DNA of 64,000 nucleotides. Source: Terrabacter sp. Root85. GTDB lineage: Bacteria; Actinomycetota; Actinomycetes; Actinomycetales; Dermatophilaceae. The DNA lies in NCBI RefSeq assembly GCF_001429185.1, contig NZ_LMIW01000012.1:124606-188605 (forward strand). Reading direction: 5' to 3'. Below the pieces are notes generated by a model that did no database searches, was not told the DNA's origin, and saw only the letters and a list, made by a program, of their open reading frames with translations. How positions within the stretch are numbered: position 1 is the first letter of the stretch; each line of letters starts with the position of its first letter. The translations under genes and the position numbers were made by a program. This document shows positions 7,081 through 18,594 of the stretch, one piece after another.

Positions 7081-7110
7081 TTGACGGGGCGTCGGCGGGC
7101 TTCGTAGTGT
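7081..7110 (+). promoter_or_regulatory. Promoter of the sulfur-scavenging operon
   Basis: TTGACG (7081-7086) and TAGTGT (7105-7110) are 18 bp apart. Transcription would begin near 7116-7118, immediately at the 5' edge of the riboswitch, which supports both calls. Confidence 0.75.
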
Positions 7111-7118
7111 CATCGACA

Positions 7119-7200
7119 GGTCAAGAGTTCCAGTGCCAAGCCCCGGCTCGCTGGACAGCAACCCTCCACCGCGGCGGGGTGCTCCGGGTGAGGACCAGGC
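7119..7200 (+). promoter_or_regulatory. SAM-IV-type riboswitch (S-box superfamily)
   Basis: The stretch carries the conserved SAM-I/SAM-IV core: GGTCAAGAG at the 5' side, CCAG paired with CTGG, the AAGCCCCGGCTCGCTGG block, GCAACCCTCC, GGGGTGCTCCGGGTGA, and a closing GACC (7193-7196) that pairs with GGTC (7119-7122). These elements match the SAM-IV class described from actinobacteria. It should bind S-adenosylmethionine and switch the downstream sulfur genes off when SAM is plentiful. Assignment to SAM-IV over a SAM-I/IV variant is from memory of the consensus; a covariance-model scan with the SAM-clan models would settle it. Confidence 0.9.
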
Positions 7201-7220
7201 CGTCGCCAGCAGGCGACGGC
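7199..7220 (+). promoter_or_regulatory. Hairpin directly after the riboswitch core
   Basis: GCCGTCGCC (7199-7207) pairs perfectly with GGCGACGGC (7212-7220) around AGCA. It touches the 3' edge of the aptamer and may be the extra P5 helix of SAM-IV or part of the expression platform. There is no T-run, so control by simple intrinsic termination here is unlikely. Confidence 0.7.
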
Positions 7221-7264
7221 AAGCGCGGACTCGAAGTGGTCGGGTCCAGGACCGAGGAGCCGAC

Positions 7265-7348
7265 ATGGCGCGCACGACGAGCACCCACCTCGTGCTCCGC
7301 CGCCACGTCGACCTGCTCCGCGTGTCCAGCGCGCTCTGTCGTCCCTGA
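7265..7348 (+). CDS. Cysteine-type leader peptide of a sulfur operon
   Basis: 27-residue peptide from ATG 7265 with a strong ribosome site, GAGGAG (7254-7259). Its second half, RRHVDLLRVSSALCRP, matches the actinobacterial putative leader peptide family (HVDLxRxxSxxCR) found before sulfur-assimilation and transporter genes. The Cys sits third from the end, so ribosome progress over it could report charged Cys-tRNA. It lies between the SAM riboswitch and the permease, so the same transcript would be read by two sulfur sensors. The family resemblance is solid; the attenuation mechanism in this organism is inference. Confidence 0.88.
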   Translation: MARTTSTHLVLRRHVDLLRVSSALCRP

Positions 7349-7458
7349 CGACGTCCTGGCCGCCGAGACCTCGGCCGGCCGGTCGGCGCCCGGCCCAACG
7401 GTGACCCCGTGGGGCCCGGACGCCAGCACGCACCCCCGCGGCCGCCGCCGCTCCCTGC

Positions 7459-7478
7459 CACCCGTCCGGTGACGGGTG
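7459..7478 (+). promoter_or_regulatory. Hairpin between leader peptide and permease
   Basis: CACCCGTC (7459-7466) pairs with GACGGGTG (7471-7478) around CGGT, 17 bases before the permease ribosome site AGGAG (7495-7499). It lies where an attenuator or Rho-related structure controlled by leader translation would be expected, but has no T-run. The rest of the 7349-7505 spacer is GC-rich with no further gene. Confidence 0.5.
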
Positions 7479-7505
7479 CCCGAGCCATCCCTCCAGGAGC
7501 CTCAC

Positions 7506-8603
7506 GTGCCATCCCTCTCCACGGTCCGGCGCTCAGCGCCGCCGACCACCACATCGTCATCGTCGTCCTCGCCGCCTTCGCCGCCTTCGCCGCCTTCGCC
7601 GGCCGAGCCCACGGCGGGAGCGTCGACGTCCGCCCCCTCGGCCGCCCCGGCGCCGGCAACCCACTCGGTCCCGCCGTCCGGAGGCGGGCCGGTCCTCACC
7701 GTCGTCCCGCGCCGCAACCCGTGGACGTGGGTCGGCGTCGCCGGCGTCGGCCTGCTCCTGGCGATGTTCGTCAACGGCCTCGTCACCAACCCCGGCTGGG
7801 ACTGGGTGACCTTCGGTCGCTACTTCGCCACCGAGACCGTCATCCGGGCTCTCGGCACGACGATCCAGCTCACCGTCCTCGGGACCGTGGCCGGCTTCGC
7901 CCTGGGGCTCGTCCTCGCGGCCATGCGACTGTCGTCCAACGCGTTCCTGCGGACCGTCGCGTGGGCCTACATCTGGGCGTTCCGGTCGATCCCGCTCATC
8001 GTCCAGCTGCTCTTCTGGTTCAACATCGCCTACCTCTACCAGACGATCAGCGTCGGGCTGCCGTTCGGGCCGTCCTTCGGCAGCGTCGAGACCAACGACC
8101 TCTTCGGGGCCCTCGGCGCCGCGGTGCTCGGGCTCGCCCTGCACCAGGCGGCCTACGCGGCCGAGATCATCCGCGGCGGCATCATCTCCGTCGACGAGGG
8201 GCAACGCGAGGCGGCCTCGGCGCTCGGCATCCCGCGGCGCCGCCAGTTCGCGAGGATCGTCCTGCCGCAGGCGATGCGCTCGATCCTGCCCAACGCCGCC
8301 AACGAGGTGATCAGCCTCTTCAAGGGCACCTCGATCGTCTCCGTGCTCGCGATCCCGGAGCTCTTCTACCAGGTGCAGGTGATCTACGGCCGCAACTCCC
8401 GGGTCGTGCCGCTGCTCCTCGTGGCGACGGTCTGGTACATCATCCTCACGACGCTCCTGTCGATCGGGCAGTACTACGTCGAGCGGCACTTCGCCCGAGG
8501 CAGCGCCCGGTCGCTGCCGCCCACACCGCTCCAGCGGCTCCGGGCCCGGTGGGCCGGCATCGCGACCCAGGCAGCGCGTCGTCCCGAGGAGGTCGCCCGA
8601 TGA
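7506..8603 (+). CDS. ABC transporter permease, polar amino acid (HisM/GlnP) type
   Basis: 365 residues from GTG 7506, chosen for AGGAG seven bases upstream. An unusual Ser/Pro-rich N-terminal extension of about 70 residues precedes a first membrane segment (about 75-95). The HisM-type permease domain (about 115-335) includes the coupling-helix (EAA) loop [22 protein letters not shown] and the [13 protein letters not shown] segment. It would move an amino acid or S-modified amino acid across the membrane together with the next gene's ATPase. One permease probably forms a homodimer. The specificity guess, a sulfur amino acid, comes from the riboswitch, leader peptide and neighbours, not from the permease itself. 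Confidence 0.92.
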
Positions 8604-9361
8604 CCGCCGCCGTCGACCTCCGCGGCGTCACGAAGTCGTTCGGGGCCCACCGGGTGCTCGACGACGTCGACCTCGAGCTGGCGGAGGGCACCGTCACGGT
8701 CGTCCTCGGACCGTCGGGGTCGGGCAAGTCCACGCTGCTGCGCACCATCAACCACCTGGAGAAGATCGACCGGGGTCAGGTGCGCGTCAACGGGACGCTC
8801 ATCGGCTACCGGCAGGTGGGTGACCGCCTCCACGAGCTGCCCGAGCGCGACATCCTGCGCCAGCGCAGCCGCATCGGCTTCGTCTTCCAGCAGTTCAACC
8901 TCTTCCCGCACCTCACCGTCCTCGAGAACGTCGTCGAGGCGCCGGTGTCGGCGCAGCGCCGCAAGCGCTCCGAGGTCGAGGTCGAGGCCAGGGCGCTGCT
9001 GGAGCGAGTCGGTCTGGCGGACAAGGCGGCTGCCTACCCGCGTCAGCTCTCCGGTGGTCAGCAGCAGCGGGTCGCCATCGCCCGAGCCCTCGCGCTGCAG
9101 CCCGACGTCATCCTCTTCGACGAGCCGACGTCGGCTCTCGACCCGGAGCTCGTCGGCGAGGTCCTCGCCGTCATCAAGGAGCTCGCCCGCGACGGGGCCA
9201 CTCTCGTCGTCGTCACGCACGAGGTCGGCTTCGCCCGCGAGGTCGCCGACACCGTCGTCTTCCTCGACGGCGGCCGCGTCGTCGAGCAGGGACCGCCCGA
9301 GCAGGTCATCGACCACCCTGTCCACGAACGCACGCGAGCCTTCCTCGACCGCGTCCTCTGA
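8600..9361 (+). CDS. ABC transporter ATP-binding protein, polar amino acid type
   Basis: 253 residues. Walker [10 protein letters not shown] (about 38-46), Q-loop ([11 protein letters not shown]), signature [15 protein letters not shown], Walker [15 protein letters not shown] and the switch His in VVTHEVG are all intact, as in the GlnQ/HisP family. ATG 8600 overlaps the permease stop by four bases (ATGA). It powers import by the adjoining permease. Its closest functional analogue in context would be TcyN, the cystine/S-modified-cysteine importer ATPase of Bacillus (inference). Confidence 0.95.
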
Positions 9362-9448
9362 CCCCACGCCACCACCCCACCCCCAACCCCCCCGGGCCGT
9401 ACCGGCCACCCATGACTCGCACCCCCCCGGGTGCCGAGAGGAGTCCTC

Positions 9449-10459
9449 ATGCCCGCACGTCCCCACCCCGTCCACCGCCCGACGACGTATGCCGTCACGG
9501 TCGTCGCCGTCGCCGTCGCCGCCGCGGTCGCGCTCAGCGCCTGCTCCGGAGCCGCCGAGGCCAGCTCGGGCGCGGCGGCCGGCTCGATCGCGCCGGCGGG
9601 CCCGGCCGTCAACACCTCGCCGGACCAGAAGCGCATCACCGCCACCACGGACGAGAAGGCCGCGGCCCTGCTGCCCGCCGCCATCCGAGAGCGGGGCACG
9701 ATCACGGCCGCCAACGCCGGGGCGGGTGGCGGCACGCCCCCGCTCGTCTTCACCGCCGACGACGACAAGACCGTCATCGGCGTCGAGGTCGACCTCGCGC
9801 ACCTCTTCGCCGACAAGCTCGGCCTCGAGGTCGAGACGCCGGCGACGAGCTGGGAGAACGTCTTCCTCGGGATCGACTCGGGGCGCTACGACGTCGCCCT
9901 GACCAACGTCACGGTCACGGAGGAGCGCAAGGAGAAGTACGACTTCGCGACGTACCGCAAGGACGACCTCGCCTTCGAGGCGCCGAAGGGCGGCACGTGG
10001 AAGGTGACGAGCGGCAGGGACATCGCCGGCAAGACCATCGCCGTCGGGTCCGGCACCAACCAGGAGAAGATCCTGCTCGACTGGAACGAGGCCAACGTCA
10101 AGGCGGGCCTCGCGCCCGCCGAGGTGAAGTACTTCCAGTCGCAGACGGACTACTACCTGGCCCTGTCGTCGCACCGGATCGACGCGTACTTCGGCCCGAA
10201 CCCGAGCGTCGCCTACCACGTCGCCACGGCCGGCCAGACCGAGGCCATCGGCCATTTCTCGGGTGCCGGTGACTCCCTCCAGGGACTCATCGCCGTGCTG
10301 ACGAAGAAGGGCTCGGGTCTCGCCGCGCCCTACGCCGCCGCCATCAACTCGGCGATCGCCGACGGCAGCTACGCGAGGGTCCTCAAGCGCTGGAACCTGA
10401 GCACCGAGGGCCTCGAGAAGTCCGAGATCAACCCGCCCGGCCTGCCCAAGACCGACTGA
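9449..10459 (+). CDS. Substrate-binding lipoprotein 1 (family 3)
   Basis: 336 residues. A lipoprotein signal ends in LSAC (lipid-modified Cys32), so the protein is tethered outside the membrane. The family 3 (HisJ/GlnH-like) solute-binding fold follows, with IGVEVDLAHLFADKLGL, SWENVFLGIDSGRYDVALTNVTVTEERKEKYDFATY and AVGSGTNQEKILLDWN. The ATG at 9449 follows GAGAGGAG; a GTG at 9431 is possible but has no ribosome site. The next gene is a close paralogue, giving two receptors for one permease and ATPase, as with TcyJ/TcyK in Bacillus. Confidence 0.93.
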   Translation: MPARPHPVHRPTTYAVTVVAVAVAAAVALSACSGAAEASSGAAAGSIAPAGPAVNTSPDQKRITATTDEKAAALLPAAIRERGTITAANAGAGGGTPPLVFTADDDKTVIGVEVDLAHLFADKLGLEVETPATSWENVFLGIDSGRYDVALTNVTVTEERKEKYDFATYRKDDLAFEAPKGGTWKVTSGRDIAGKTIAVGSGTNQEKILLDWNEANVKAGLAPAEVKYFQSQTDYYLALSSHRIDAYFGPNPSVAYHVATAGQTEAIGHFSGAGDSLQGLIAVLTKKGSGLAAPYAAAINSAIADGSYARVLKRWNLSTEGLEKSEINPPGLPKTD

Positions 10460-10489
10460 GCCCCCAACCCAGCCAGGAGACGAATCACC

Positions 10490-11518
10490 ATGCACCACAG
10501 CAAGACCCACGCGCCTGCTCGTCGCCGTGCGCTTGTCGTCGCGGCCGCCGTCCTGTCGACGGTCGGTGTGCTCGGAGCCTGCGCCGACCCGGTCAGCACC
10601 GGGACGACGCAGGTGGACCCCAAGGCTCTCGGCGACTCGAAGGTCCTCCCGGTCTCCTTCGACACCTCGGCCGGCGCGAAGCGCCCGGAGGGCACCCTGC
10701 ACCCGCAGATCGCGGCGACCCTGCCGGCCGACGTCAGGGCCAGGGGCACCCTGGTCATCGGCAGCGGCGGCGCGGGCGGCGGCATACCTCCTCTGGCGTT
10801 CACGGCCGACGACAACAAGACCCCGATCGGGGTGGAGGTCGACGTGGCCCACCTCGTCGCGGACATCCTCGGCCTCAAGCCCGACGTGCAGACGACGAGC
10901 TGGGAGAACCTCTTCATCGGCATCGACTCGGGCAAGTACCAGGTCGCGATCTCCAACGTCGGCGTCTCGGAGGAGCGCAAGGAGAAGTACGACTTCGCGA
11001 CGTACCGTCTCGGGCTGCACGCGTTCGAGGCCAGGAAGGGCTCGACGCCGGTGCGGGGGCCTGCCGACGTCTCGGGCCAGAAGGTGGCCGTCGGGTCGGG
11101 CACCCTGCAGGAGGCGATCCTGCTGCGCTGGAACGAGGAGAACGAGAAGGCCGGACGGCCCCCCGCTGAGCTCGTCTACTACCAGGGCACGACGGAGTAC
11201 TACCTCGCCCTCGACTCCGGACGCATCGACCTCTACCTCGGCCCGAACCCCACCGCGACGTACCACGTCGTCACGGCCGGCAAGACGCAGATCGTCGGCA
11301 CCGTGTCGTCGAGCTTCCCGATCCCCGGGAAGGTCGGGGTCCTGACGAAGAAGGGCAACGGCCTGGCCACGCCCATCTCGGACGCCATCAACGCAGCCAT
11401 CGCGGACGGCAGCTACGGCAAGGTCCTCGCCCGCTGGGGCCTCACCGCCGAGGCGGTGCCGGCCTCCGAGGTCAACCCGGCAGGGCTGCCCAAGCCGACC
11501 GAGACCTCGGACCAGTGA
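10490..11518 (+). CDS. Substrate-binding lipoprotein 2 (family 3, paralogue of previous)
   Basis: 342 residues with lipobox LGAC (Cys31). It shares long identical stretches with the preceding protein (EERKEKYDFATYR, IGVEVD, TSWEN, KVAVGSG), so the pair arose by tandem duplication. Ligand-pocket segments differ: GGGIPPLAFTADDNKTP against GGGTPPLVFTADDDKTV, and RLGLHAFEARKG against RKDDLAFEAPKG. The two receptors may therefore collect different sulfur compounds for the same transporter. AGGAGA precedes ATG 10490. Confidence 0.93.
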   Translation: MHHSKTHAPARRRALVVAAAVLSTVGVLGACADPVSTGTTQVDPKALGDSKVLPVSFDTSAGAKRPEGTLHPQIAATLPADVRARGTLVIGSGGAGGGIPPLAFTADDNKTPIGVEVDVAHLVADILGLKPDVQTTSWENLFIGIDSGKYQVAISNVGVSEERKEKYDFATYRLGLHAFEARKGSTPVRGPADVSGQKVAVGSGTLQEAILLRWNEENEKAGRPPAELVYYQGTTEYYLALDSGRIDLYLGPNPTATYHVVTAGKTQIVGTVSSSFPIPGKVGVLTKKGNGLATPISDAINAAIADGSYGKVLARWGLTAEAVPASEVNPAGLPKPTETSDQ

Positions 11519-11527
11519 GGGACTGAC

Positions 11528-12700
11528 ATGGCCACCATCGTCACCCTCGCCTCGAGCCCGTCCGCGGCGTCCCGCACGGATGCCGTCCTCGGCCACATCG
11601 AACGCCGTCTCACGGTCCGCGGCCACGACGTCCAGCGTGTCGTCATCCGTGACCTGCCCGCCGAGGCGCTGCTGCGCGCCGACGTGGCTGATCCGCAGAT
11701 CGCCGCCGTCGTGGCGCAGATCGAGGCGGCCGACGCGGTCGTCGTCACGACCCCCGTCTACAAGGCGGCCTACACCGGGCTGCTCAAGACGCTGCTCGAC
11801 GTGCTCCCGCAGTACGCGTTGCGCGGCAAGTCGGTGCTCCCCGTCGCCACCGGCGGCAGCGCGGCCCACGTGCTCGCGGTCGACTACGCGCTTCGGCCGG
11901 TCCTCGTCTCGCTCGGCGCCGAGCACGTCACCCAGGGCTGGTTCGTGCTCGCCTCCGACGTGCAGGTCTTTCCCGCCGACGGGGGCGTGCTGCTCTCGGA
12001 GGCCGCCTCCCGAGCCCTGCACCAGGTGACGGAGTCGTTCCTGTCGCACGTCGCACGTCACCGACGCGACGAGGTGCCCGCCCTCGACGACGACGTCGTG
12101 CTGCGGGTGTCCCCTCACGACGACGTCGCGGCCCCGCTGCTCGAGGACCTCGTCGTCGAGTACGGCACGCGCTACGGCCTCTCGACGCCGCACACGCAGC
12201 TGACGGAGGTCCCGGTCAGCGACTTCGAGGGACCCCACGGGGCCTTCGTCGTCATCCTGCGTGGCGGGCAGACGATCGCCGGCGGTGCGATCCGCCGCTA
12301 CGACGACACCACGGCCGAGGTGAAGCGGGTCTGGACCAACTCCCAGTTCCGGCGGCAGGGGCTCGCCCGCCGCGTCCTTCTCGAGCTCGAGAAGGCCGCG
12401 GCGGGTCTGGGCTACCGGAGGATCCACCTCACCACGGGTCCGCGCCAGCCGGAGGCCCGTGCCCTCTACCTCGCTGCCGGCTACCTGCCGGCCTTTGACC
12501 TGCACGCCGACCCGGAGTCGATCGGCCCGCACGCCTTCGACAAGGAGCTGCCGGCCGGCACCGTCCGATCCGCCTCAGCCGCAGGCGGACCGGGCCCGGC
12601 GAGCGTCGGCAGCGCCGCGCCGACCGCGCCCGACGGGGCGGCCGGGGCGGCCGGGGCGGCCGCGGGTCTGCGCTCCTACCGGGACTGGGGCGCGGCGTGA
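11528..12700 (+). CDS. NAD(P)H:FMN reductase fused to GNAT acetyltransferase
   Basis: 390 residues in two parts. Residues 1 to about 175 are an SsuE/MsuE-type FMN reductase: a flavodoxin-like start (VTLASSPSAASRTDAVL), TPVYKAAYTGLLKTLLDVLPQYALRGKSVLPVATGGS and the C-terminal GWFVLASDVQ. Residues about 190-335 are a GNAT domain with the acetyl-CoA loop RRQGLARRVLLELEKAA and the TGPRQPEARALYLAAGY motif. A low-complexity Ala/Gly/Pro tail ends the protein. The reductase would supply reduced FMN to the two LLM monooxygenases downstream, while the acetyltransferase could N-acetylate the imported S-modified cysteine, as SnaA/YtmI does in Bacillus (inference). Confidence 0.9.
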   Translation: MATIVTLASSPSAASRTDAVLGHIERRLTVRGHDVQRVVIRDLPAEALLRADVADPQIAAVVAQIEAADAVVVTTPVYKAAYTGLLKTLLDVLPQYALRGKSVLPVATGGSAAHVLAVDYALRPVLVSLGAEHVTQGWFVLASDVQVFPADGGVLLSEAASRALHQVTESFLSHVARHRRDEVPALDDDVVLRVSPHDDVAAPLLEDLVVEYGTRYGLSTPHTQLTEVPVSDFEGPHGAFVVILRGGQTIAGGAIRRYDDTTAEVKRVWTNSQFRRQGLARRVLLELEKAAAGLGYRRIHLTTGPRQPEARALYLAAGYLPAFDLHADPESIGPHAFDKELPAGTVRSASAAGGPGPASVGSAAPTAPDGAAGAAGAAAGLRSYRDWGAA

Positions 12701-14637
12701 CCGACCGACGGATCGTCGTCGTGGGCGCCGGACCACGGGCGCTCGGCCTCGTCGAGCGCATCGGCGCCAATGCCCGCGTGGTGGGCAGCCCGAGGGAGCG
12801 GGTGCAGGTGCACGTCGTCGACCCGCACCCGCCCGGCGGCGGCCGCATCTGGCGGTCGGCGCAGTCGCCCCTGCTCTGGATGAACTCCGAGGCGCAGGAC
12901 GTCACGGTCTTCACCGACGCGTCCGTCACGTGCGAGGGCCCGGTCGTGCCCGGGCCGTCCCTCGCCGAGTGGGCGGCCGGCCCCGACGCGAGCGCAGCCG
13001 CCGGGGCCCTGTCGGCGCGTGACTTCGCGCCGCGCGTCGTCCAGGCCGACTACCTCGAGTGGGCATGGCGACGAGTCGTCTCGACCCTGCCGGAGCACGT
13101 CACCGTCCACGCCCATGCGGACCGGGCTGTCGAGCTGCACGGGACCGGCGCCGAGGGTGGACACCAGCAGGTCACCCTCGCTCGTGGTGCGGTGCTCGAG
13201 GGCGACATCGTCGTGCTCGCCCAGGGCTATCTCGACCAGGCGCCCGCACCGGACGAGCAGCGGCTGCTCGACGACGCCGCGTCACGGGGGCTCACCTACG
13301 TCCCGCCGGGTCACACGGCCGACCTCGAGCTCGAGGGCCTGCGCCCGGGCGAGCCCGTCGTCGTCCGCGGCATGGGTCTGGCCTTCATCGACCTCGTCGT
13401 CCTCCTCGGCGAGGGCCGCGGCGGCACCTTCACCGGCGAGGGCACGCAGCTGACCTACCACCCGAGCGGACGGGAGCCGGTCCTGCACGTCGGGTCCCGT
13501 CGTGGCGTGCCGTACCACGGCAAGCTCGGCTACGAGGTGCGAGCGGCCGCCTCCGGACCGGCGCCCTTGCGACACCTGACCCGTGAGCGCCTCACGGCCC
13601 TCGGTGCGGGCACGGCGGCCCTCGACTACCGCACCCAGGTCTGGCCCCTCGTCGTGCTCGAGCTCGCGGTGGCGCACTACCGCCGGCTCTTCGAGGCCCA
13701 TCCCGAGCGCACACGGGGCACCTTCGACGGGCTCGAGCGCGCCCTGGTCACGGCCGACGTCACCAGCGGTGAGCTCACGGCCGTCGCCCTGACGCACCTC
13801 GCAGACCCCGAGGACGTCTTCGACATCGAGCGGATCGACCGCCCCCTCCGTGCTGTCATCGACCAGGCCACGCGGGCCGCCGACGTCGAGCGCGTCGTCG
13901 CCGAGCACATCCGCCGCGACGTCGTCCGGCGCGCCGACGCGTCGCGATCGAGCGACCGCGCCGTCTTCGACACGCTGCTCGGGGTGTATGCCGCCCTGGC
14001 GGAGCTCGTCGTGTCGGGTCGCCTCCTCGACGAGGACCGGGTGCGCCACGTCGAGGGCCACTTCCACGGGCTCTTCTCGTTCCTCGCGAGCGGTCCGCCG
14101 CCTCGCCGCCTCGCCGAGCTGCTCGCGCTGCACCGGGCCGGCGTCGTCCGCTTCCTCGGCCCCGACCTCGAGCTCACGATCGAGGAGGGTGCCTTCGTCG
14201 GGAGGTCCGGAGAGCGCGTGGTGCGGGCGCGGGCCGCCGTGGACGCACGGCTGCCCCGCCCCGACAGCGCCCTCGTGACCGACCCCCTCGTCGCAGGCCT
14301 GCTGGCCGGGGGCGAGCTGCGCTCGCGACCCGTCACGGCCGCCGACGGAACAGCCCTCGGCGCGGGGCAGCTCGTCGCCGACGCCCGGGCGCGCGCCGTC
14401 CGCGCCGACGGCACCGTGCACCCACGCCGGTACCTCCTCGGGCCCGCCGTCTCGGGCTCCGCCGGCGCCGGAGGCTTCTCCCGGCCCCGCTTCAACGGCC
14501 CCGGCTTCCGCCAGAACGACGCCGTCGCCCGGGACCTGCTCACCGTCGCCGTGAGCGACCGAGCCACCGCCCGCCTCCGACTCACCCCGCATCCCGTTCC
14601 CACCACGAGAGACAAGGACCACCGCCATGCCAGTTGA
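12697..14637 (+). CDS. FAD/NAD(P)-binding protein of unknown reaction
   Basis: 646 residues. The dinucleotide motif VVVGAGPRALGLVERI lies at residues 6-21, with PHPPGGGRIWR and LWMNSEAQDVTVF after it, a pattern of the FAD-NAD(P)-binding family (PF13454 type). A second pyridine-nucleotide-like region, VVVRGMGLAFIDLVVLLGEG, is near residue 225. The GTG start overlaps the previous stop (GTGA). In this operon it could be an additional oxidase or flavoprotein acting on the S-substituted amino acid, but no reaction can be read from the sequence. Confidence 0.85.
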   Translation: MTDRRIVVVGAGPRALGLVERIGANARVVGSPRERVQVHVVDPHPPGGGRIWRSAQSPLLWMNSEAQDVTVFTDASVTCEGPVVPGPSLAEWAAGPDASAAAGALSARDFAPRVVQADYLEWAWRRVVSTLPEHVTVHAHADRAVELHGTGAEGGHQQVTLARGAVLEGDIVVLAQGYLDQAPAPDEQRLLDDAASRGLTYVPPGHTADLELEGLRPGEPVVVRGMGLAFIDLVVLLGEGRGGTFTGEGTQLTYHPSGREPVLHVGSRRGVPYHGKLGYEVRAAASGPAPLRHLTRERLTALGAGTAALDYRTQVWPLVVLELAVAHYRRLFEAHPERTRGTFDGLERALVTADVTSGELTAVALTHLADPEDVFDIERIDRPLRAVIDQATRAADVERVVAEHIRRDVVRRADASRSSDRAVFDTLLGVYAALAELVVSGRLLDEDRVRHVEGHFHGLFSFLASGPPPRRLAELLALHRAGVVRFLGPDLELTIEEGAFVGRSGERVVRARAAVDARLPRPDSALVTDPLVAGLLAGGELRSRPVTAADGTALGAGQLVADARARAVRADGTVHPRRYLLGPAVSGSAGAGGFSRPRFNGPGFRQNDAVARDLLTVAVSDRATARLRLTPHPVPTTRDKDHRHAS

Positions 14638-15763
14638 GTTCCTCGGCATCGCCGCCAACCACGACGGCACGGAGACGAGAGCCCGCAGCGCCGGCGCCCT
14701 CGACCTTCCGTATGCCGTCAAGCTCGCCCGAGCCCACGAGGACAACGGGTGGGACCGCGTCCTCTTCGCCTACCACTCCGGATCTCCCGACCCCGCCCAG
14801 GTCGCCGCGCACGTCGCGGCCCACACCGAGCGGCTCAACCTCGTCGTCGCGCACCGACCCAACACTGCCTACCCGACCCTGACGGCCAAGACCTTCGCCA
14901 CGCTCGACCACATCAGCAACGGTCGGTTCGAGGTCCACGTCATCACCGGCGGCAGCACGGCGGACCAGTCCGCCGAGGGTGACCACCTCGACAAGGACGC
15001 CCGCTACGCCCGCACCCGGGAGTTCATCCGGATCCTCAAGCAGGCGTGGACGAGCGACGAGCCGTTCGACTTCGACGGCGAGCACTACCGGTTCGAGAAC
15101 TTCCTCGCGGACATCAAGCCGCTCCAGACCCCGCGCCCACGGATCTCGTTCGGCGGGTCGAGCCCGGCGGCATACGCCGTCGGTGCGCAGGAGGCGGACG
15201 TCTTCGCCCTCTGGGGCGAGCCGCTCGCCGGGACGGCGGAGCAGATCGAGACGATCCGCGCCGCTGCCGCTGCCGCCGGGCGCGCGCTCCCGACGATCCA
15301 GGTCGCATTCCGACCGATCCTCGGTGCCACGGACGAGCTGGCCTGGGAGAAGGCCGAGCGCACGCTCGGCGACATCCACGCGCTCCAGGCCGAAGGAGCC
15401 TCCGTCTCGCGGGGCCGACTGCGCCGCAGCGGGTCCCGGCCCGAGAACGCCGGCGCGCAGCGGCTGCTCGCGGCCGCGGAGGCGGGGGAGCGCCACGACC
15501 GCGCCCTCTGGACCGCGACGTCTGCCGCGACCGCTGGCGGCGGCAACTCCACGGCCCTCGTCGGCACGCCCGAGACCGTTGCCGCGGCGCTGCTCGACTA
15601 CTACGACCTCGGCGCGCGGATCTTCTCCGCCCGCGGCTACCACCTCTACGACGATGCCGTGGACGTCGGGCGGCACGTCATCCCGCTCGTGCGCGAGGAG
15701 GTCGCGCGTCGGGAGGCAGCGACCGCCGCGACGACGCCTGCCGACCACGAGGCCGTCGCGTGA
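14627..15763 (+). CDS. LLM-class flavin-dependent monooxygenase (SsuD-like)
   Basis: 378 residues of the bacterial luciferase-like barrel. It opens with MPVEFLGIAANHDGTE and has the FMN/phosphate-side segments VVAHRPNTAYPTLTAKTFATLDHISNGR and VITGGSTADQSAEGD, as in alkanesulfonate monooxygenase SsuD and its relatives. It should cleave a C-S bond using O2 and reduced FMN delivered by the SsuE-like domain encoded upstream. ATG 14627, after AAGGA (14614-14618), overlaps the previous gene by 11 bases, so coupling is tight. The exact substrate is unknown. Confidence 0.92.
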   Translation: MPVEFLGIAANHDGTETRARSAGALDLPYAVKLARAHEDNGWDRVLFAYHSGSPDPAQVAAHVAAHTERLNLVVAHRPNTAYPTLTAKTFATLDHISNGRFEVHVITGGSTADQSAEGDHLDKDARYARTREFIRILKQAWTSDEPFDFDGEHYRFENFLADIKPLQTPRPRISFGGSSPAAYAVGAQEADVFALWGEPLAGTAEQIETIRAAAAAAGRALPTIQVAFRPILGATDELAWEKAERTLGDIHALQAEGASVSRGRLRRSGSRPENAGAQRLLAAAEAGERHDRALWTATSAATAGGGNSTALVGTPETVAAALLDYYDLGARIFSARGYHLYDDAVDVGRHVIPLVREEVARREAATAATTPADHEAVA

Positions 15764-16530
15764 GCGCCCGGGACGAGTGGCTCGCGTGGCGCGCCGCTCG
15801 CGAGGGCGACCTCGCCCAAGAGCACGGCTGGCTCTCGCTGACCGGCTTCGCGTGGCTGCCGGACCGGCCGACGAGCCTGCCCGGTCTCCCCGGCCTCTGG
15901 TGGACGGACGCCTCCGCTGCCCACGTCGAGGCGACCGCGAGCGAGGGGCTGCGCGTCGACGGCGAGCCCGTCGCCGGGCGGGCCACGACGGACGTCGAGG
16001 AGGCAGGGTCGCGGCTCTGGGTGCAGCACGGCGAGCGCGTCGTCGAGCTGCTCCGGAGGGGCGGGCGGCTCGCGGTGCGCACCCGGGATCCGCGGGCCAC
16101 GACGCGCCGGGACTTCGCCGGTGTGCCGACGTGGGAGCACGATCCGGACTGGGTGCGCCCCGGACGGTTCACGGCCGCCGACCCCCCGGCACGGGTGGAG
16201 GTGCGCACCGCCCGTGACGACCTCGTCCAGCACTCCACGGTCGTCGGCACCGTCGACGTCGACATCGACGGCGTGCGCCACCGGCTCAGCGCGGTCGGCG
16301 CCGGAGAGGGCCTCGGACTCCTCTTCCACGACACGACGAACGGCTCGCTCTCGGCGCCCTGGCGCACCGTCACGACGTCGTCCCCGGACCCCGACGGCAA
16401 CGTCGTCGTCGACTTCAACCGGGCCGTCAACCTCCCCTTCGCCTTCACGGCGTACGGCACGTGTCCGGGGCCGGTCACGGGCAACCGGATCGCCGTGCCC
16501 GTCACAGCGGGTGAGAAGCGGCCGGCATGA
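15760..16530 (+). CDS. DUF1684 domain protein
   Basis: 256 residues, GTG start overlapping the previous stop (GTGA). The C-terminal signature FNRAVNLPFAFTAYGTCP...NRIAVPVTAGEK matches the DUF1684 family (FTxYxTCPxPxxxNRLxxxIxAGEK), and HGWLSLTGFAWL is the usual N-terminal block. DUF1684 proteins have no assigned reaction. Placement between two flavin monooxygenases suggests a hydrolase or isomerase step in breaking down the oxidised sulfur compound (inference). Confidence 0.88.
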   Translation: MSARDEWLAWRAAREGDLAQEHGWLSLTGFAWLPDRPTSLPGLPGLWWTDASAAHVEATASEGLRVDGEPVAGRATTDVEEAGSRLWVQHGERVVELLRRGGRLAVRTRDPRATTRRDFAGVPTWEHDPDWVRPGRFTAADPPARVEVRTARDDLVQHSTVVGTVDVDIDGVRHRLSAVGAGEGLGLLFHDTTNGSLSAPWRTVTTSSPDPDGNVVVDFNRAVNLPFAFTAYGTCPGPVTGNRIAVPVTAGEKRPA

Positions 16531-17585
16531 GGTTCTGCACGTACACGTTGCTCGACACGAGCTCCGACCCCGTCACCGGGGTCGCCCGCTCCCAGACGGA
16601 GGCCTTCGAGCACGTCGCGCGCCAGGCCGAGTGGGCCGAGGAGCTCGGCTTCGACGCGTTCGGGGTGGGGGAGCGGCACGCCCAGCGCTTCGTCTCGTCC
16701 TCGCCGCCCGTCGTCCTCGCGCACGTCGCGGCGCGGACGTCCCGCATCCGACTCATGACGACCGTGACGGTGCTCTCGCTCCTCGACCCCGTCCGCGTCG
16801 CCGAGGACTACGCGACGCTCGACCACCTGAGCGGTGGGCGGCTCGACGTCGTCATCGGCAAGGGCAACGACCCCGACCAGAACGCCCTCTTCGGCTACGA
16901 CCTCGACGGCCAGTGGGAGCGCAACGCCGAGAAGTACGAGCTGTTGCGACGGCTGTGGCGCGAGGACCGGGTCACGTGGTCGGGACGCTTCCGTCCCCCA
17001 CTCGTCGACGCGACGACCCAGCCGCGGCCGCTCCAGCAGCCCATCCCCGTCTGGCACGGCTCGGCGAGCTCGACCGAGTCGACCGAGCTCGCCGCGCGCT
17101 GGGGCGACCCGCTCTTCTCCGCCAACGGCTTCCACCCCTTGGAGACCTACGCCGCCCTCGTGCGGCACTACCGCGAGCGGTGGGAGGTGCACGGCCACGA
17201 CCCGGCCGACGCGGTCGTCGGTGCCGGATTCCTCGGGCTCCTCGTCGCCGACACGACACAGGAGGCGCTGCGCCTCTACGAGCCGGCGTTCGAGGCGTTC
17301 CGGCGCTCGCCGGGTGCCGTGCACAACCGCCTGCCCTTCTCGACGCTGGAGGAGTACGCCCGCGACAGCTCCGCGTTGATCGGCTCGCCGGCCGAGGTCG
17401 TCGACAAGATCGGGCGCTACCGGGAGGCCTTCGGCCATGAGCTCTCCGGTGTCTCGCTCGACGTGCCGGGCCTGCCGGAGAGCGTGACCCGGCGCAGCGT
17501 CGAGCGGTTCTTCGCGGACGTGGCCCCGGTCGTGCGACGCGAGCACCCGTCGCGACAGGAGTTCAGACACGCGTTGAATGCCTGA
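16527..17585 (+). CDS. LLM-class flavin-dependent oxidoreductase 2
   Basis: 352 residues, luciferase-like fold with EELGFDAFGVGERHAQRF, LMTTVTVLSLLDPVRVAEDYATLDHLSGGRLDVVIGKGNDPDQN and a C-terminal VSLDVPGLPE. It belongs to a different LLM subgroup from the SsuD-like enzyme, nearer the group annotated as alkanal monooxygenase-like or CmoO/YtmO-like. ATG 16527 overlaps the previous stop (ATGA). It is the last gene of the operon. No clear terminator hairpin follows; the next promoter begins within 40 bases. Confidence 0.9.
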   Translation: MRFCTYTLLDTSSDPVTGVARSQTEAFEHVARQAEWAEELGFDAFGVGERHAQRFVSSSPPVVLAHVAARTSRIRLMTTVTVLSLLDPVRVAEDYATLDHLSGGRLDVVIGKGNDPDQNALFGYDLDGQWERNAEKYELLRRLWREDRVTWSGRFRPPLVDATTQPRPLQQPIPVWHGSASSTESTELAARWGDPLFSANGFHPLETYAALVRHYRERWEVHGHDPADAVVGAGFLGLLVADTTQEALRLYEPAFEAFRRSPGAVHNRLPFSTLEEYARDSSALIGSPAEVVDKIGRYREAFGHELSGVSLDVPGLPESVTRRSVERFFADVAPVVRREHPSRQEFRHALNA

Positions 17586-17631: not shown

Positions 17632-18594
17632 GTGCAGTCATCGGTGACCCAACCCCAGAGCGCCACGCCCGGGTCCGGGGGACCCCCGCCCGAGGTGGGT
17701 CCACCCCCGCGACGGTCGAGCGGGCGGGCCTGGGAGTGGTCGCTCGCGGCGCTCCTGCTGCTGCCCAACCTCGTGCTGCTCATCGTCTTCACGTACCGCC
17801 CGCTGCTCGACAACATCAGGCTGTCGTTCACCGACTGGAACATCTCCTCGCCCATCGCCAACCCCGTGGGCCTGTCGAACTACATCGAGTGGTTCGGGCG
17901 TGACGACACGAAGATCATCCTGCGCAACACCCTCGTCTTCACCGTCGCCACCGTCGGCATCTCCATGGCGGTCGGGCTCGGCCTCGCCCTGCTGCTCGAC
18001 CAGAAGCTCAAGGGGCGCAACATCGTCCGCTCGGTCGTCTTCGCGCCGTTCGTCATCTCGGGCGCCGCGATCGGCATCGCCTTCCAGTTCGTCTTCGACC
18101 CGCAGTTCGGCCTCGTCCGCGACCTGCTCGCGCGGATCGGTGTCGCCTCGCCCGACTTCTACCAGCAGCCCGGCTGGGCGCTCTTCATGGTGACCGTCAC
18201 CTACATCTGGAAGAACCTCGGCTACACCTTCGTCATCTACCTCGCCGCCCTGCAGGGGCGGCGCGCCGACCTCGACGAGGCGGCCGAGATCGACGGCGCC
18301 ACTGCGTGGACCCGTTTCCGACGCGTCCTCATGCCCCAGCTGCGCCCGACGACGTTCTTCCTGTCGATCACGGTGCTGCTCAGCTCGGTCCAGGTCTTCG
18401 ACATCATCAACGTCATGACCCGGGGCGGCCCGCAGGGCAACGGCACGACCACCCTCGTCTACCAGGTCTACCAGGAGACGTTCGTCAACCAGCGCGCCGG
18501 CTACGGCGCCACCGTCGCCACCGTCATGTTCGTCATCCTGCTCGCCGTCACGGTGGTCCAGGTGCGCTTCATGGACAGGGGGAAGCAGGCATGA
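17632..18594 (+). CDS. ugpA: Glycerol-3-phosphate/sugar ABC permease, UgpA type
   Basis: 320 residues with about six membrane segments after a Pro/Gly-rich cytoplasmic N-terminus (about 1-30). The coupling loop ADLDEAAEIDGATAWTRFRRVLMPQLRP (about 205-232) is the MalF/UgpA form. Specificity for glycerol-3-phosphate or glycerophosphodiesters is inferred from ugpQ at the end of the operon; family members also carry other sugars. GTG 17632 appears to be a leaderless start. Confidence 0.85.
   Translation: MQSSVTQPQSATPGSGGPPPEVGPPPRRSSGRAWEWSLAALLLLPNLVLLIVFTYRPLLDNIRLSFTDWNISSPIANPVGLSNYIEWFGRDDTKIILRNTLVFTVATVGISMAVGLGLALLLDQKLKGRNIVRSVVFAPFVISGAAIGIAFQFVFDPQFGLVRDLLARIGVASPDFYQQPGWALFMVTVTYIWKNLGYTFVIYLAALQGRRADLDEAAEIDGATAWTRFRRVLMPQLRPTTFFLSITVLLSSVQVFDIINVMTRGGPQGNGTTTLVYQVYQETFVNQRAGYGATVATVMFVILLAVTVVQVRFMDRGKQA

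Follow-up and report, generated by a model that had tools for sequence, protein, structure and literature searches.

The window analysed here is a stretch of 64,000 nucleotides (nt) of Terrabacter sp. Root85 (contig NZ_LMIW01000012.1, positions 124,606 to 188,605). At positions 7081 to 17585 it carries an operon headed by a SAM-IV riboswitch for S-adenosylmethionine (SAM) and by a cysteine (Cys) leader peptide. Nine genes of the same direction follow. They code for an ATP-binding cassette (ABC) permease and ATPase, two substrate-binding proteins (SBP1 and SBP2, both SBP_bac_3), a flavin mononucleotide (FMN) reductase fused to a GNAT acetyltransferase (FMN_red and GNAT), a flavin adenine dinucleotide (FAD) enzyme (NAD_binding_9) and two luciferase-like monooxygenases (LLM1 and LLM2, both Bac_luciferase) on either side of a DUF1684 protein. 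At seven of the eight junctions, the genes overlap or are at most 30 nt apart; between the ATPase and SBP1 genes lie 69 nt, or 87 nt if the later SBP1 start is used. Pfam and the junction spacing bear out the nine tightly packed genes and their families, as read from the sequence in a preliminary description. The operon probably serves sulfur starvation: it would import an amino-acid-derived organosulfur compound and strip its sulfur oxidatively. The SAM-IV match, the leader family, the poverty in sulfur amino acids and a survey of leaders all support this reading, which the preliminary description had outlined.

Table 1. Features of the operon and of a second operon in the same genome; positions refer to the window unless stated otherwise.
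Feature	Position	Strand	Basis
Promoter-like site TTGACG-18 nt-TAGTGT (TAGTGT at 7105-7110)	7081-7110	+	Visible in the sequence
SAM-IV riboswitch aptamer	7119-7231	+	RF00634
Cys leader peptide MARTTSTHLVLRRHVDLLRVSSALCRP, 27 codons	7265-7348	+	Open reading frame; Shine-Dalgarno (SD)-like GAGGAG at 7254-7259
Amino-acid-type ABC permease	7506-8603	+	PF00528; GTG start; SD-like AGGAG at 7495-7499
ABC ATPase	8600-9361	+	PF00005
Binding lipoprotein SBP1	9431-10459 (start 9431 or 9449)	+	PF00497; lipobox-like LSAC
Binding lipoprotein SBP2	10490-11518	+	PF00497; lipobox-like LGAC
SsuE-type FMN reductase-GNAT acetyltransferase fusion	11528-12700	+	TIGR03567, PF00583
FAD monooxygenase, sister family of L-aspartate N-hydroxylase	12697-14637	+	PF13454
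LLM1, SsuD/SfnG side of the family	14627-15763	+	PF00296
DUF1684 protein	15760-16530	+	PF07920
LLM2, near the CE1758 family (below the TIGR04036 cut-off, 276 vs 479)	16527-17585	+	PF00296
Second operon with SAM-IV and Cys leader ending in RRRHVDLSRVSSALCRD	Other contig, G000:C8:709185-713367 (L036 9186-13368)

The riboswitch is a member of the SAM-IV family, for which SAM binding and expression control are predicted. The match reached 109.3 bits, where the gathering score is 38, covered the whole model (positions 1-116) and was the only one of Rfam above gathering score in the window. Four relatives (L056-L059: Terracoccus, two Terrabacter and Humibacillus) share the promoter-like site in front of it in the form TTGAC...TAGnGT. 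The site agrees with the nTGACn/TAnnnT pattern of S. lividans (PMC8079986), and was not among the predictions of a sigma-70 scan. The SAM-IV-type aptamer of the preliminary description is thus confirmed, and its promoter is present as a promoter-like site. The leader is kept in the same four relatives. It scored 33.7 against the NCBIfam family NF042934 'putative leader peptide' (cut-off 27); its 29.7 and 21.0 bits against the Ms4527A and Ms5788A families lie under their cut-off of 45. The single Cys codon, TGT at 7337-7339, is the third from the end, which makes the earlier wording 'Cys-ending' slightly loose. Cys leaders in front of cys operons have a precedent in actinobacteria (PMC1262725).

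Sulfur-acquisition proteins are often poor in Cys and methionine (Met) (PMC7661421). Mean Cys+Met was 0.30% in the nine operon proteins versus 2.07% in 41 other proteins, the predicted window proteins of at least 150 amino acids (aa), with start codons omitted (Mann-Whitney p = 2.4e-6). This mean counts the permease from 7764; counted by hand from 7506, the permease has three Met in 364 residues (0.82%) and the mean becomes 0.32%. The ATPase, the FMN reductase-GNAT fusion and LLM1 contain neither Cys nor Met after the start, and the sole Cys of SBP1 and of SBP2 lies in the lipobox-like stretch. Cys+Met jumps from 0.57% in the last operon gene to 2.01% and 3.56% in the next two genes, which places the operon end at 17585. 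A continuation into the downstream sugar-type ABC transporter was rejected: Cys+Met climbs at 17695, and Humibacillus (L059) has different genes there. Over 88 related loci, the sulfur-poorest parts were the FMN reductase (0.06%), LLM (0.32%), GNAT (0.56%), DUF1684 (0.73%) and SBP (0.74%), at a comparison level of 2.15% in 916 other genes. Independently of any annotation, the depletion strongly supports the predicted sulfur-starvation role.

Five SAM-IV elements are present in the 4.87-Mb genome. Three of them precede a SufS-like gene, a metY-type gene and metX, and none of these three has a leader. Another one is combined with a Cys leader on a different contig. This second operon codes for a CDO_I-family protein, two LLMs of the NtaA/DmoA family (TIGR03860, over cut-off) and an FMN reductase; the four proteins have one Met in total. 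Two Kribbella genomes have relatives of these LLMs (42% and 61-62% identity) inside a cluster of the window type. As the Kribbella clusters hold both LLM types, the Terrabacter genome appears to have a single gene set divided between two operons that share one switch. A third leader-like match in the genome (G000:C1:55262) was discarded; it consists of THLVLRRH only, without the HVDLxRV...C core, and the adjoining genes are on the other strand.

The combination of riboswitch and leader was surveyed in the class, in which 150 of 246 genomes have a SAM-IV element. The sample of 74 elements was non-random: 5 from this genome, 29 of the best-scoring and 40 picked by hand, with multi-copy genomes favoured. 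Elements were classed by the best tblastn match to the MetX, MetY and SufS-like proteins of this genome or to its two operons. A leader followed none of the 63 elements preceding metY (23), metX (4) or a SufS-like gene (36) and 9 of the remaining 11 (Fisher p = 5e-10, a nominal value, as the elements lack independence: one genus, g128, supplies three of the nine and this genome two, and genera recur among many of the 63). The leader pattern had been loosened after L194 was seen, and the 63 Met/SufS elements and the background were rescanned with it; upstream of unrelated or unclassified genes it matched 11 times in 1137. The first pattern gave 8/11, 0/63 and a background of 3/1120. Its match before metX at L185 begins upstream of the aptamer's end and was treated as spurious. 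Behind the nine leader-bearing elements lie the two operons of this genome, an FMN reductase together with an NMT1-type SBP, a pair of LLMs, an importer with a family-3 SBP, the window-like permease and ATPase of another genome and three genes sharing one lipoprotein start. The two elements without a leader belong to one unclassified locus and to one locus whose protein starts we take to resemble those of cys genes.

Two side observations came from this survey. The SufS-like gene, found behind 36 of the 74 elements, is sulfur-poor in this genome (L037 8344-9678; 0.45% Cys+Met). The link of this 'cysteine desulfurase' to SAM-IV suggests a function in sulfur assimilation rather than in routine Fe-S assembly. 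L194, L198 and L202, all from one genus, have a SAM-IV element and a leader ending in RRLxIDLRRSSSCLC, followed by a binding lipoprotein (0.60-0.62% Cys+Met in the fetched part). The L198 lipoprotein, the one of the three that was tested, is a family-5 SBP. These lipoproteins are perhaps part of a sulfur-peptide importer.

The gene set recurs across actinobacterial families, Streptomyces included. Of the 246 genomes of the class, 35 have the FAD family (E up to 1e-60). In the search made, the nearest named relatives of the Terrabacter genome are Terracoccus sp. 273MFTsu3.1 and Terrabacter sp. Ter38 (93% identity each in the FAD protein). A scan of GTDB genome contigs for this family kept 80 of 284 relatives and yielded 70 loci of more than 18 kb, with the FAD gene called in 69. 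An LLM was present at 61 of these loci, permease, ATPase and SBP together at 38, a GNAT at 33 and DUF1684 at 25; a part counted as absent is one under the BLAST thresholds used, and L044 and L106 appear to be one and the same Kineococcus record, a duplicate within the counts. The FMN reductase-GNAT fusion is common to Terrabacter-like, Humibacillus and Kribbella loci. In Enemella evansiae (L060 9386-11878), the FMN reductase is instead fused to the FAD monooxygenase in a protein of 830 aa, hinting that both act in one process. SAM-IV elements occur at 11 FAD-family loci, six with a leader (L040, L056-L059, L088) and five without. One of the latter, in Kineococcus, lies downstream of the SBP gene. 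Leader-like open reading frames without SAM-IV precede an LLM or GNAT gene at nine Streptomyces/Kitasatospora loci and the permease gene at two Kribbella loci. Most other FAD-family loci have neither element.

Several observations weigh against a dually controlled sulfur operon. Four Streptosporangium loci (L093, L096, L113 and L126) have SAM-IV upstream of the FAD gene and no leader, so the pairing is not universal. At two of these four loci, the riboswitch stands before an extra gene of 310-313 aa. Folding of the transcript (the leader and the stretch from SAM-IV to the SD site, six sequences) did not reveal a consistent alternative structure linking riboswitch and SD site; helix P1 of the aptamer stayed under a probability of 0.1 in five of the six free folds. 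Apart from the end of the preceding gene, the terminator scan showed no intrinsic terminator around the operon head. Seven of the 70 FAD loci lack the full transporter, GNAT, LLM and DUF1684 alike. Depletion over the 88 loci is only moderate in the permease (1.49%), the ATPase (1.19%) and the FAD enzyme (1.15%), and low Cys+Met also occurs in a few proteins elsewhere in the window (down to 0.44%).

The FAD enzyme is related to a structurally characterised enzyme. The family profile aligned with PDB 8cp2 over nearly the whole length (E 9.3e-138). This chain is the L-aspartate N-hydroxylase of Streptomyces sp. V2, a class B flavin monooxygenase (PMC10404684). Over 86 sequences including that of the window, residues on the flavin and NADPH side are kept: R13 in 78, N62 in 84 and R577 in all 86. 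The aspartate-binding positions are replaced, R266 by Lys (86/86), R409 by Leu (84/86), R412 by Tyr (79/86), N413 by Gly or Ala (78/86) and R416 by A, V, P, T, S or I (76/86). With the oxygenating core retained and the arginine cluster for aspartate lost, the enzyme is predicted to act on a less acidic substrate, either as an N-hydroxylase of amino acids or as an S-oxygenase of thioethers; both predictions fit the sequence.

The substrate pocket of the SBPs also departs from that of known relatives. PF00497 matched SBP1 with 81.0 and SBP2 with 78.6 (threshold 26.4). We assume that Arg75 of the glutamine-binding protein GlnBP holds the alpha-carboxylate and Asp157 the alpha-ammonium of the ligand. 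In 49 close SBP sequences, the two of the window included, the Arg75 equivalent is kept throughout (49/49) and the Asp157 equivalent is a proline (49/49). A ligand without a free primary amine would fit this, as would one whose amine is held differently. In 27 more distant SBPs, this position is a threonine in 24. The SBP1 model (predicted local distance difference test, pLDDT, 85.5) resembles glutamine-, arginine-, octopine- and cystine-binding proteins. The best NCBIfam matches of the permease, a cystine permease model, and of the ATPase, TcyN, are both under cut-off. As the SBPs differ from standard amino-acid binders at one key position, S-modified cysteine, proposed in the preliminary description as the imported form, is only a candidate ligand. 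Several Streptomyces/Kitasatospora loci (L063, L066, L084 and others) have a second divergent family-3 SBP (31-35% identity) and a permease adjoining the FAD gene.

The DUF1684 protein is a predicted thiol or persulfide partner. Its single Cys is invariant across 25 aligned sequences, 19 of which have a C-x7-C motif; six (window, Terracoccus, Terrabacter, Humibacillus, two Kribbella) retain the second Cys alone. Any other Cys is absent in 23 of the 25. A role as thiol relay has been proposed for a Haloferax Cx7C DUF1684 protein (PMC9426492). The model (pLDDT 94) matched at E <0.001 only DUF1684 structures, which are haloarchaeal and include a mercury complex. A hydrolase role is therefore without support, and a metallohydrolase fold as in M20 deacetylases was not recognised.

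This bears on the deacetylation step. The S-alkylcysteine clusters of B. subtilis contain M20 N-acetylcysteine deacetylases as the last pathway enzyme, and the three M20 deacetylases of this bacterium are redundant (PMC12757645). Neither of the two operons contains an M20 deacetylase, and 12 M20 proteins lie elsewhere in the genome. Compared with the genes of 96 survey loci, these 12 proteins gave nothing at E 1e-10. A repeat in all frames at E 1e-5 gave two weak matches in Lentzea loci, 26-27% identical to the marginal member L216; M20 loci did find one another (37 cross-hits). As called, the M20 proteins show no sulfur poverty (1.10-3.98% Cys+Met; the L207 call may be a shadow frame), and the one match of the leader pattern upstream of an M20 gene, at L207, is not convincing. 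By these sequence comparisons, the survey clusters have no clear M20 deacetylase. The statement that the operon lacks a recognisable deacetylase is borne out. The accompanying suggestion that the FAD protein or DUF1684 takes its place is not: the former is a class B flavin monooxygenase homologue along its length, and the latter matches no hydrolase at E <0.001 and resembles only other DUF1684 proteins.

A direct counterpart of the B. subtilis scm and ytn clusters would take up S-alkylcysteine, N-acetylate it, cleave it by an LLM to N-acetylcysteine and deacetylate this with an unlinked M20 enzyme. GNAT, LLM, FMN reductase and a family-3 SBP transporter are all there for such a pathway, and M20 candidates are available elsewhere in the genome; in B. 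subtilis, three M20 deacetylases are redundant (PMC12757645). This is unlikely, given survey loci without a clear M20 gene, the ordinary sulfur content of the called M20 proteins and the proline in the SBP pocket. Moreover, the recurrent FAD enzyme and DUF1684 are not named for the B. subtilis clusters in the available part of the source (PMC12757645). Somewhat less probable still is an import of compounds already without a free alpha-amine, such as N-acyl- or N-substituted S-cysteines (e.g., mycothiol-derived mercapturates), with the FAD enzyme oxygenating sulfur and not nitrogen. The invariant Arg and Pro pair in the SBPs fits this, as does the octopine-binding protein 5org at ranks 6 and 10 among the structural matches of SBP1; octopine is an N-substituted amino acid. 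Glutamine- and arginine-type binding proteins match equally well or better, however, another residue could hold the ammonium, and the GNAT would stay unexplained.

The use of alkanesulfonates or sulfones as in Ssu, Sfn or Msu systems, with an odd transporter, is improbable. The nearest solved chains of LLM1 carry the name alkanesulfonate monooxygenase, the FMN reductase part exceeds the curated SsuE cut-off (TIGR03567; 198.7 vs 164.05), and a genome of the same family has SAM-IV and leader before an FMN reductase and an NMT1-type SBP. But LLM1 scored 205 against an SsuD cut-off of 518.2 (TIGR03565), by which its identification as SsuD was rejected, and likewise did not reach the SfnG cut-off. 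It has Ala, Arg and Ser at the positions aligned with Arg226, His228 and Cys54, which we take as the SsuD active-site numbering. A family-3 SBP and a GNAT are not known as Ssu parts. A system unrelated to sulfur, with general amino-acid uptake, a flavin monooxygenase pathway and accidental RNA elements, can nearly be dismissed: the transporter family also serves Gln, Arg and His, but the Cys/Met depletion stops at the last gene of the operon, and two sulfur-sensing elements stand in conserved order.

For the preferred sulfur-starvation operon, the following working is proposed. Two signals would each hold the operon off, SAM at the riboswitch and charged Cys-tRNA acting through the leader. As each input represses, the operon would open only when sulfur on the methionine side and on the cysteine side are both short. 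In contrast, metX, metY and the SufS-like gene carry SAM-IV alone, without the Cys-leader input. SBP1 and SBP2 would bind a ligand with a carboxylate and probably no free alpha-ammonium, and the ABC transporter would import it. The GNAT may acylate an amine. FMNH2 for the LLMs would come from the SsuE-type FMN reductases. The FAD enzyme would oxygenate nitrogen or sulfur, and the LLMs would cleave the C-S bond. DUF1684 and the CDO-like protein of the second operon may take over the released thiol. Sulfur would then enter as sulfite or sulfide, not via deacetylation of N-acetylcysteine; this oxidative route is favoured because the second operon adds the CDO-like protein.

The S-alkylcysteine clusters of B. 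subtilis include parts of an ABC transporter. Like its scm, ytn (ytmI operon) and yha clusters, which use acetyltransferase and monooxygenase for sulfur recovery (PMC12757645), the operon unites an N-acetyltransferase, a flavin monooxygenase and an SBP transporter. To this extent the proposed ytmI counterpart stands. It is not supported as to the M20 deacetylase, which the operon lacks, nor as to the substrate, since S-(2-succino)cysteine breakdown is assigned to scm, with ytn and yha tied to other S-modified cysteines (PMC12757645). Unlike the B. subtilis clusters, the operon has an extra FAD monooxygenase and DUF1684, its FMN reductase is fused to GNAT (or, in Enemella, to the FAD enzyme), and its switch consists of SAM-IV and Cys leader. 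Each RNA element belongs to its known family; unlike the known cases, they are stacked on one transcript, and in the sample the stack is absent at Met and SufS-like genes. Literature searches, which did not reach most subscription papers, brought up no account of this operon or of a SAM-IV element paired with a Cys leader. With the Ssu, Msu and Sfn two-component systems the operon shares the logic of FMN reductase and LLM, down to the SsuE cut-off passed; it differs in an LLM1 with altered active-site positions and low scores, in the amino-acid-type transporter and in the GNAT. The FAD enzyme shares whole-length homology and R13, N62 and R577 with the L-aspartate N-hydroxylases of FzmM/CreE type (8cp2/8cp5). 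Unlike these, it has lost R266, R409, R412, N413 and R416 and sits in a sulfur operon.

The observation stands, and its interest exceeds that of a ytmI copy: the operon is a variant of known organosulfur salvage systems. More tentatively, it may combine a dedicated two-input RNA switch, marking scavenging operons but not methionine synthesis, with a deacetylase-free desulfurisation. The key enzyme of this route would be an amino-acid or thioether monooxygenase derived from the Asp-N-hydroxylase fold, with DUF1684 as its thiol partner. The operon gives a setting to families that are hard to place: the sister family of Asp-N-hydroxylase, DUF1684, CE1758-like LLMs and FMN reductase-GNAT fusions. 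The RNA logic is predicted to be of the AND type and would divide sulfur scavenging from methionine synthesis. As the gene set recurs in many actinobacteria including Streptomyces, it bears on the organic-sulfur supply of soil actinobacteria.

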